Part shown: in pieces, positions 25,701 through 28,879 of the stretch
How positions within the stretch are numbered: the stretch's first letter is position 1
How the letters are laid out: every line of letters begins with the position of its first letter
DNA from: Patescibacteria group bacterium
GTDB taxonomy: Bacteria > Patescibacteriota > WWE3 > UBA101185 > UBA10185
Direction: 5' to 3'
Assembly: GCA_016926555.1 (NCBI GenBank)
Contig: JAFGOI010000004.1
Span: forward strand, 128,776-168,995
Length of the DNA: 40,220 bases
Program-made: the position numbers and the translations under genes
Notes under the pieces: generated by a model
The model's input: the letters and a program-made list of their open reading frames with translations, nothing else
Told to the model about the DNA's origin: nothing
The model's database searches: none

Positions 25701-27050
25701 ATGTCAAAAGACGATTCCGTAAAAAAAATAGCGTCTTTGTGCAAAAGGCGCGGATTTGTATATCCTTCATCTGACATATATGGCGGGTGGGAAGCAACGT
25801 ATGATTTTGGTCCTTTAGGTGCGGAAATTCTCAGAAACTTGAGGAATCTTTGGTGGGAGTATTTCGTAACTAAACAACCGGATATTGTTGGATTAGATGG
25901 AGCGATAATATCTCATCCACGTGTTTGGGAGGCAAGTGGCCATGTGGAATCTTTCAATGATGTTATGATTGAGGATTTGGTGACGCATGTAAGATATAGG
26001 GCAGATCACATTGTTGAGGAAGCGTTGGGAATAAATGCTGACGGCTCAACTCCCGAGGAATTTGACGATCTAATTGAAAAGAATAATTTGAAAAGTCCTG
26101 ACGGAAATACTTTGTCAAAAGCAAAAAGGTTTAATAGTTTGGTTGATGTTTATGTAGGTACTCTAGAAAATGAGAAAGAAAAAGCCTATTTAAGAGGTGA
26201 AACCTGCCAGCCGATATTCTATAACTATAAACTTGTCAAAGATTCTATGAGAATGAAATTGCCCTTTGGAATCGCGCAGATAGGAAAGGCCTTCAGAAAT
26301 GAAATAAAAGTTGGTCCGTACTTTTTTAGAACGCGGGAATTCGAACAAATGGAGTTGGAAATGTTTTTACATCCATCTGATCATGAGAAATATTTTGAGA
26401 AGTTTAAAGAGATGAGTATGGAATGGCTTAGAAGTTTAGGAATTGACGAGAATAAACTGCGGTTCCGTGAACAGGAATTCAAAGAAAGAGCTCACTACAA
26501 TAAAGTTGCTACAGATATAGAGTATGAATTTTCTTTTGGATGGAAAGAATTTCAAGGTCTTCATTACAGAGGTGATTGGGATCTAAAAAGACATGGGGAA
26601 TTTTCGGGTGAAGATTTTACATATAAAGATGAAGAAAGAAATGAGGACTATATACCGCATATTGTTGAGTATTCTATTGGTCTAAATCGGCTGATGCTTG
26701 TTCTTCTTTTTGACGCTTACAGAGAAGAAGAAGAACGTGTATACCTGAAACTTGATAGGAAGACAGCGCCATATAGAGTTGCTGTGTTTCCCTTAATGAG
26801 AAATAAGCCAAAGTTGGTTGAGAAGGCTCAACAAATATACAGCAGTTTGTTGAAATTAGGTTTCTCGGTTGCTTGGGATGATAGAGGAAATGTTGGTAAG
26901 AGATATTATTCCCAGGATGAAATCGGGACTCCATATTGCGTGACGGTAGATTATCAAACTCTGGAAGATAATACGGTCACTATTAGAGATCGGGATAGTA
27001 TGGAACAGATCAGGGTGAAGGTATCGGATGTTGAGAATGAGATTCTATAA
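25701..27050 (+). CDS. glyS: Glycyl-tRNA synthetase, alpha2 (class II GlyRS) type
   Basis: 449 aa; CKRRGFVYPSSDIYGGWEATYDFGPLG, RTREFEQMELEMF, PHIVEYSIGLNRLML, FSVAWDDRGNVGKRYYSQDEIGTPYCVTVD; SD AAAGGAG upstream. Confidence 0.97.
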   Translation: MSKDDSVKKIASLCKRRGFVYPSSDIYGGWEATYDFGPLGAEILRNLRNLWWEYFVTKQPDIVGLDGAIISHPRVWEASGHVESFNDVMIEDLVTHVRYRADHIVEEALGINADGSTPEEFDDLIEKNNLKSPDGNTLSKAKRFNSLVDVYVGTLENEKEKAYLRGETCQPIFYNYKLVKDSMRMKLPFGIAQIGKAFRNEIKVGPYFFRTREFEQMELEMFLHPSDHEKYFEKFKEMSMEWLRSLGIDENKLRFREQEFKERAHYNKVATDIEYEFSFGWKEFQGLHYRGDWDLKRHGEFSGEDFTYKDEERNEDYIPHIVEYSIGLNRLMLVLLFDAYREEEERVYLKLDRKTAPYRVAVFPLMRNKPKLVEKAQQIYSSLLKLGFSVAWDDRGNVGKRYYSQDEIGTPYCVTVDYQTLEDNTVTIRDRDSMEQIRVKVSDVENEIL

Positions 27051-27071
27051 AATATAGCCAAGATTTGCTAA

Positions 27072-27130
27072 AGTCCAGGAAGTTCTTTCATGCGATTTTC
27101 CCGCATGAATATTACAGAACTTCCCGGACT
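27072..27130. repeat. Long inverted repeat with nested inner hairpin; probable bidirectional terminator of convergent genes
   Basis: AGTCCAGGAAGTTCT (27072..27086) vs AGAACTTCCCGGACT (27116..27130), 14/15 pairs; inner TTCATGC/GCATGAA 7/7. Confidence 0.75.
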
Positions 27131-27131
27131 C

Positions 27132-27323
27132 GGTTTTAGGGGCTTTTGCTATTTGGGGCGGAATTTTCCGCACCTACATAGCAAACACGCCCCTGAACCA
27201 TTGATGTGGTCTTGCCGGCCGTGCCCGCACCGGCAAGTTTCCTGGTCGAACCTTTTTCTTTTCTGTGTTTGGGCCCAAGCATAGGCCCAATGACCCGGCT
27301 CTACTTGAGCCGGACTTTTTTTT
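27132..27323 (+). other. Consecutive hairpins, last followed by T8 (structured RNA candidate or structured antisense of the CxCGH ORF)
   Basis: GGTTTTAGGGGC/GCCCCTGAACC with nested TTTGCTAT/ATAGCAAA and GCGGA/TCCGC; TTGCCGG/CCGGCAA; TTGGGCC/GGCCCAA; CCGGCTC/GAGCCGG then ACTTTTTTTT. Confidence 0.5.
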
Positions 27324-27331
27324 GTTGCCAT
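27149..27331 (-). CDS. Small CxCGH zinc-ribbon-like protein
   Basis: 60 aa MATKKSPAQVEPGHWAYAWAQTQKRKRFDQETCRCGHGRQDHINGSGACLLCRCGKFRPK with CxCGHxxxDHxxGxGxCxxCxCxxF pattern; SD AAAGGAGAG 4 nt before ATG; candidate -10 TATAAT at 27380..27375 on minus strand. Confidence 0.65.
   Translation of the reverse strand: MATKKSPAQVEPGHWAYAWAQTQKRKRFDQETCRCGHGRQDHINGSGACLLCRCGKFRPK
27295..27323 (+). terminator. Intrinsic terminator on + strand, overlapping 5' end of the minus-strand ORF
   Basis: CCGGCTC-tactt-GAGCCGG perfect 7-bp stem followed by ACTTTTTTTT. Confidence 0.7.
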
Positions 27332-27502
27332 TTTTCTCTCCTTTCCCTGTGTGCTCGTTTGCAGTTTGTGTCCGATTATAAAGTAAATTTTTGTTTTCGT
27401 ATATCTATTAAGGCTTTACCTGAGTTCAAGTTTGTCTGCTCATTATGTTTCCATGACCAATAATATTTCTCTTCGCGGTCGCACCTTCGGGTTTTATTGG
27501 CG

Positions 27503-27560
27503 TTGACATTGGATACTTTCTGGTGTTTATTGGTAGTGCGATGGTGATAAATGGTGATCG
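27503..27560 (+). promoter_or_regulatory. mraZ promoter with candidate MraZ-binding direct repeats
   Basis: TTGACA at 27503..27508; TGGTG/TGGTA/TGGTG/TGGTG at 27521, 27531, 27542, 27552 (spacing 10, 11, 10). Confidence 0.6.
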
Positions 27561-27581: not shown

Positions 27582-27995
27582 ATGAAAATGTTTCTTGGAC
27601 AATACAACCCGATAATTACTGACGGATCTCGGATAGTTTTACCGAAAAAACATAGGGAACAGATTCCCGGGGATCAGGTAATTTTATCTCGCGGTTTTGA
27701 GAGCTGTATTTTGGTATACGACAAAAGCGATTGGCAAGACAAAGCTCAGAAGCAGGTTGAAAACTTGAAGGAGTTCAAGACCAGTGATCTTGAGAGATAC
27801 TTGTATACGTCAGCGGTGGAAGTCTCGATTGATGTTCAAGGAAGACTTGTGATTCCCTCTGAGTTGAAAGACTATGCAGGTATAGAAAAGGCAACCTCAG
27901 TGATTGGAGTGGGAGATCACATAGAAATATGGAGCAAACAGACTTGGGAAGATCGCTTTGAAAAGATTACGGAGGAACTAATTGCCCAATTGTAG
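27582..27995 (+). CDS. mraZ: Transcriptional regulator MraZ
   Basis: 137 aa; two SpoVT-AbrB-like repeats (DGSRIVLPKKHREQIPGDQVILSRGFESCILVY ... DVQGRLVIPSELKDYAGIEKATSVIGVGDHIEIW); upstream of rsmH. Confidence 0.95.
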   Translation: MKMFLGQYNPIITDGSRIVLPKKHREQIPGDQVILSRGFESCILVYDKSDWQDKAQKQVENLKEFKTSDLERYLYTSAVEVSIDVQGRLVIPSELKDYAGIEKATSVIGVGDHIEIWSKQTWEDRFEKITEELIAQL

Positions 27996-27997
27996 AA

Positions 27998-28879
27998 ATG
28001 GAGTACCACAAGCCAGTATTATTAAGTGAAGTAATAGCACATTTAAAACCTGAAAGAGGAAAAAAGTTTATAGATGCAACGCTGGGTGACGGGGGGCACA
28101 CTGTCGAATTATTAAAATGTGGGGCTGAAGTTCTGGGAATAGACTATAACGAGCAAAGTTTAGAACGGGCTATTTCGAGAGTTGATGGGGAGGGATTAGG
28201 TGCACAATTTACGAGTGTTCTTGGAAATTTTAAGAACATTGACAAAATAGCGGAAGATAATAACTTCAAAAACGTGGATGGCGTTTTGTATGACCTAGGT
28301 TTTAGTTCATATCAAATGGATGAGTCAGGAATCGGGATGTCATTCCAAAAGGATGAACCTCTTGATATGCGTTTAGATAAGTCATTAGGTGTTACAGCGG
28401 CGGATTTAGTAAACGCCTTATCAGAAAAAGAATTGGCAAAGCTTATTTACGAATATTCTGATGAGAGGTTCGCGAAGAAGTTTGCTAAGGCTATAGTGAA
28501 AAGTCGTAATTTGGAGAAGATTCAAACAACTAAACAATTAGCGGAAGTTTTAGTTGGTGCATCTTCTTCAGCGTACGAACATGGAAGAATTCATCCGGCC
28601 ACCCGAACTTTCATGGCGCTTCGTATAGCTGTAAATGACGAACTTGAAAATCTGAGAATATCACTGCCTCGGGCTGCGCACACACTGTCGTCTGGTGGCT
28701 TTTTGATAGTAATAACCTTCCATTCATTGGAAGACAAACTGGCCAAGGAGTTTGGCCATAGTGCGCAGCCCATTATAAAAGAAGTAAATCAGAGACCCAT
28801 TACCCCTTCGGAAGAAGAGGTGACGGCAAACATACGTGCAAGAAGCGCTAAGATGCGTGTTTATGTTAAAGAAAACTAA
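27998..28879 (+). CDS. rsmH: 16S rRNA (cytosine(1402)-N(4))-methyltransferase RsmH
   Basis: EYHKPVLLSEVIAHLKPERGKKFIDATLGDGGHT, DGVLYDLGFSSYQMD, RTFMALRIAVNDELENL, ITFHSLEDKLAKEF. Confidence 0.97.
   Translation: MEYHKPVLLSEVIAHLKPERGKKFIDATLGDGGHTVELLKCGAEVLGIDYNEQSLERAISRVDGEGLGAQFTSVLGNFKNIDKIAEDNNFKNVDGVLYDLGFSSYQMDESGIGMSFQKDEPLDMRLDKSLGVTAADLVNALSEKELAKLIYEYSDERFAKKFAKAIVKSRNLEKIQTTKQLAEVLVGASSSAYEHGRIHPATRTFMALRIAVNDELENLRISLPRAAHTLSSGGFLIVITFHSLEDKLAKEFGHSAQPIIKEVNQRPITPSEEEVTANIRARSAKMRVYVKEN

Follow-up and report, generated by a model that had tools for sequence, protein, structure and literature searches.

Tiny C/H-rich proteins of phages are usually small binding adaptors, and proteins from phage-like settings are among the closest counterparts of a 60-aa open reading frame (MATKKSPAQVEPGHWAYAWAQTQKRKRFDQETCRCGHGRQDHINGSGACLLCRCGKFRPK) that lies on the minus strand between glyS and mraZ in a 40,220-nucleotide stretch of a Patescibacteria genome (the window). 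These counterparts comprise a protein of the Streptomonospora phage-plasmid phiM2 (WP_131103008.1), gp51 of the mycobacteriophage Fruitloop, a 44-aa deltaproteobacterial ORF (L090) on a phage-like contig, where it adjoins DUF1064 and Dam genes, and, weakly, phrog_6114. They have the CGHxxxDH..C..C.C core and the accessory or phage setting in common with the 60-aa ORF, but there is little likeness beyond the module; the loop and the protein are longer in gp51, and the phiM2 protein is missing the first Cys. The second set consists of seven proteins from Thorarchaeota (L083-L089), for which no family name was found. These agree with the 60-aa ORF in all of the C/H spacing, the G before the second C group, the F past the last C and their short, stand-alone form, but differ from it in being archaeal, in their length of 45-49 aa, and in carrying the module near the N-terminus without a long basic arm.

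The module was delineated by a search of 264 Gb of genomes with a pattern in which the codons for C and H, and for two of the G residues, were set at the spacing seen in the ORF. This pattern, CxCGHx4Hx4GxCx2CxC, occurs at 11 places, and few chance matches are expected since it carries ~43 bits against a search space of ~39 bits by simple arithmetic. At ten of these places (seven in Thorarchaeota, one in a deltaproteobacterium and two in Streptomyces) the same module sits in short ORFs or heads longer ones; the eleventh (L080) looks like a chance match. The seven C/H positions with fixed spacing are present in the 60-aa ORF by construction of the pattern. An aromatic residue was not demanded by it, and all ten relatives have an F or Y three residues past the last C, the position taken by F57 in the 60-aa ORF. 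Stand-alone copies are 44-49 aa long, each with its own ATG, which in the Thorarchaeota is mostly preceded by GAGGTGAAAAA. Most differences among the Thorarchaeota copies fall on third codon positions, and dN is smaller than dS in each pairwise comparison. As a separate observation, the leader AGAGGTGAAAAA before the ATG is mostly common to these seven loci, and the surrounding sequence has a mild fold excess (z -1.6 to -4.3).

Further copies were recovered in phiM2, Fruitloop gp51 and one ORF of the same phylum. A HMM built without the window ranked the 60-aa ORF first of 4887 open frames (next best 0.42) with an E-value of 2.8e-10, which is optimistic because its members had been gathered by the pattern or by searches derived from this ORF. 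Within the phylum, a strict DNA motif pattern with the terminal F found only this locus in 382 genomes, and the module profile found, in 117 genomes, only the 60-aa ORF and one ORF already in the profile. Protein searches yielded neither a full-length homologue nor a family. No significant full-length match was found in GTDB genomes, 96 relatives, phages and plasmids; the best Pfam hit (0.25) is below the cut-off, NCBIfam gave none, and PHROG returned only phrog_6114, which is not significant (E 0.08). A match to RhynO was rejected as it lies on the wrong strand. The 60-aa ORF thus joins a scattered, apparently unnamed class of C/H-rich modules that is partly phage-borne.

The 60-aa ORF and the hairpin island

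The minus-strand ORF, its Shine-Dalgarno sequence and the upstream TATAAT, all described in the earlier note, are present (Table 1). The TATAAT is not among the sites given by a promoter scan, which returned no consensus promoter for the minus-strand ORF. No codon-position signal is seen in the ORF (GC 0.52/0.54/0.52) and its codon usage differs from that of the host, a test that is rendered uninformative by the foreign composition of the sequence. The AlphaFold2 model of the protein is of too low a quality (pLDDT 59) for comparison with known folds.

Table 1. Coordinates of the features in the glyS-mraZ region of the window and at the two other loci bearing the tag
Feature	Position	Strand	Remarks
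glyS	25701..27050	+	Left border of slot
Hairpin 1	27072-27091/27111-27130, inner 27087-27094/27102-27109		Lies where glyS and the small gene converge
Hairpin 2	27135-27143/27189-27197, inner 27145-27157/27173-27185		Nested stems; spans stop codon of the small gene
60-aa ORF	27331..27149	-	ATG start; putative zinc ligands among C33, C35, H37, H42, C49, C52, C54
Hairpin 3	27211-27218/27230-27237		Within ORF
Hairpin 4	27269-27275/27284-27290		Within ORF
Hairpin 5	27295-27301/27307-27313, then T8 27316-27323	+	Terminator-like; within 5' end of the small gene
Shine-Dalgarno AAAGGAG	27344..27338	-	6 nt 5' of ATG
TATAAT, possible -10 box	27380..27375	-	43 nt 5' of ATG; without -35 box
Tag GAGTTCAAGTTTG	27422..27434	+	One of three copies in genome
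mraZ promoter/operator region TTCGGGTTTT..TTGACA..repeated TGGTG	27486..27555	+	Conserved in relatives; right border of slot
mraZ	27582..27995	+	
SH3-like gene	L093:15910-16650 (C7:55910-56650)		246 aa, secreted, GC ~58%; tag ~290 nt upstream
51-aa gene	L094:3185-3340		Hydrophobic, strong Shine-Dalgarno; hairpin with 17-nt arms ~5 nt after stop
51-aa gene with hairpin	L094:3185-3405 (C7:63185-63405)		GAGTTCAAGTTTGAA ~30 nt upstream, adjoining likely transcription start

The ORF overlaps an island of hairpins (27060-27331), the existence of which is confirmed: all five of the hairpins listed in the earlier note were recovered, their positions agreeing with those given there exactly or to a few bases, as was the T8 run that follows the last of them on the plus strand. 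The island folds with z-scores of -9.4 on the plus and -10.2 on the minus strand relative to dinucleotide shuffles, none of which was as low. Among 1754 windows of 272 nt, sampled from 240 kb of stretches of the same genome, it is the top-ranking fold (GC-corrected z -5.9). The excess is uneven, being concentrated in 27061-27200, which contains hairpins 1 and 2 (z -12.5 on the minus strand). The coding part alone has a z-score of about -3.5 to -3.7, and it is more folded than versions with permuted codons in which the protein and the codons were kept fixed (z -2.9). The pairing proposed between the two ends of the island (AAAGTCC with GGACTTT) does exist; it is at chance level, with ~2 such 7-base pairs expected in 272 nt by arithmetic, and three other long-range pairings of the 7-base type are listed within 27060-27331.

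The glyS-mraZ gap as a cargo slot

The genes glyS and mraZ are adjacent throughout the family; the gap between them can be as short as 43 bases and exceeds 1200 bases at its longest. About half of the family genomes carry unrelated ORFs in this gap, each led by a Shine-Dalgarno sequence, often on the minus strand and with a hairpin just after glyS, and other relatives leave the gap empty. In one genome (L026) the cargo is a GH43 glycosidase; most of the cargo ORFs match nothing. The unrelated ORFs and the variable length of the gap therefore mark it as a slot for cargo. Three of the relatives (L025, L032 and L038) have gap proteins of ~104 aa that apparently form a related group.

The 60-aa gene resembles the cargo of the relatives (L020-L038) in position, strong Shine-Dalgarno sequence, the frequent minus orientation and the hairpin beside glyS, with hairpin 1 occupying the place of the relatives' hairpin between the convergent ends. 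It differs from them in that their proteins are unrelated and lack the C/H module, and in its fold excess, which reaches -8.1 at the window locus as against z-scores of about 0 to -4.9 in the relatives. Two observations concern the neighborhood of the slot. The TGGTG boxes of the mraZ promoter, spaced 10 nt apart (ATGGTGATAAATGGTGA) and conserved across the family, are likely to be the MraZ operator, and a strong fold (z -5.9) lies at 28671-28853 of the window, inside a mraW-like gene after mraZ. Nothing useful was found in the literature about the slot, about small zinc proteins or about cassettes of this group of bacteria.

Three hairpin-rich accessory genes and a common tag

The strongest local hairpins in the 240-kb sample are clustered, with seven of the eight strongest places falling at three loci, namely the 60-aa gene, a gene for a SH3-like protein and a gene for a 51-aa protein, the last two having been located through the next strongest folds of the sample. 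The SH3-like gene, which is absent from the 26 family genomes, has hairpins in its leader (with a 19-bp stem), in its body and at its 3' end. Each of the three loci carries one copy of the 13-base tag GAGTTCAAGTTTG, and these are the only three copies in the 872-kb genome, also when one mismatch is allowed; ~0.03 exact copies would be expected from the base counts, and none was found in the 26 family genomes. The placement of the tag varies: at two of the loci it precedes the gene on the gene's own strand, by ~30 or ~290 nt, and in the window it lies on the opposite strand, ~90 nt upstream. It might be a recombination scar, a site for a regulator or something else. Comparison of the wider surroundings of the tag gave no significant similarity except for one marginal pair. 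An origin of the tag from a tRNA was discarded, there being no tRNA at the three loci, as was a tag-like sequence in one relative (G022), in which only the Shine-Dalgarno region recurs.

Protein gene, RNA or cassette

The earlier note had offered three models for the island without choosing among them, and its reading is partly supported: the protein gene prevails, and the plus-strand non-coding RNA is left without support. According to the latter model, the region 27072-27321 would be a structured RNA or a long 3'UTR of glyS ending in the hairpin and T8, with the minus-strand ORF being coincidental. The very strong fold and the compact row of hairpins closing on a plus-strand terminator-like site are what such an RNA might look like, but the minus strand folds as strongly, and the G-U pairs do not favour the plus strand (four favour it and five the minus strand). 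The T8 run is accounted for as the antisense of the AAA lysine codons in MATKKS, the start of the small protein. No Rfam family was matched at the gathering score, the glyS-mraZ gap has no plus-strand promoter-like site, and searches found neither a second copy of the hairpin DNA in the same genome nor a DNA relative of the locus, nor a counterpart of the plus-strand fold at the same place in the relatives; a 22-base match within the genome was rejected as a copy, being the MATKKS start of another protein gene. Coding homologues of the module do exist, as conserved short proteins in which its relatives are carried, and they therefore support the minus-strand protein model; a module of five Cys and two His with natural relatives would be an unlikely accident. 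Hence we regard a plus-strand RNA with a coincidental ORF as highly improbable. The protein gene might still be regulated by an antisense transcript reading through from glyS to near 27321. The sole plus-strand terminator-like candidate after glyS is 27295-27323, ~245 nt past that gene and in the 5' end of the small gene, and glyS transcripts may run on into the small gene because hairpin 1 has no U-run. Yet terminator-like sites are found at about their expected number (two against 1.2), the T-run is forced by the lysine codons, and the relatives have their hairpin directly after glyS. With nothing positive in favour of a dual-function or antisense-regulated gene, this arrangement seems to us decidedly unlikely.

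The variable slot, the foreign composition and the long palindrome right after the stop codon, here and at the two other accessory genes with the common tag, could also point to a gene cassette or the remnant of a mobile element, in which the palindromes would be integron- or transposon-like recombination sites and the ORF the cargo. Against this, neither a recombinase nor terminal repeats are seen, and the three palindromes are mutually unlike, with no significant similarity beyond the tag. In particular, an integron cassette was rejected on the palindrome ends, read by eye, which lack the attC core sites (RYYYAAC..GTTRRRY); hairpin 1 ends in AAAGTCC..GGACTC. We consider a recombination cassette of this type unlikely, if somewhat less so than antisense control. 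A more speculative proposition, to which we give only slight credence, is that the three tag-marked, hairpin-saturated genes represent cassettes of a new type in small-genome bacteria, each with a single gene and either mobile or under common regulation, with the palindromes around and inside the gene helping to move or control it.

The explanation that we favor, and hold to be quite likely, is that the locus is an accessory and probably horizontally acquired minus-strand gene in the glyS-mraZ slot, which codes for a probably zinc-binding adaptor protein and has a hairpin 3' end. The small gene would be transcribed toward glyS, and its strong Shine-Dalgarno sequence would drive translation into the 60-aa protein, predicted to consist of a basic N-terminal arm and a single compact C/H-rich module (C33, C35, H37, H42, C49, C52, C54). 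The composition of this module suggests that it most likely binds zinc, and the protein most likely serves as a small adaptor of the phage or mobile-element type, with nucleic acid or another protein as its predicted partner. Hairpins 1 and 2 would form the 3' end of the mRNA, where they may keep the convergent glyS apart, in the manner of a terminator or insulator, and probably end or protect the message; no U-run follows hairpin 1 in the minus direction. Hairpins 3-5, which lie in the coding sequence with its milder excess, may in part be a by-product of foreign GC-rich sequence.

With this analysis, a hairpin island that could be read in several ways receives a definite protein-coding assignment and a place among tiny C/H-rich proteins that are scattered over archaea, bacteria and phages. 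In this lineage, moreover, the gap between glyS and mraZ proves to be a slot for cargo. The part most worth following is the private tag at the three hairpin-rich accessory genes, which offers a specific lead on how accessory genes may be gained or controlled in very small genomes.
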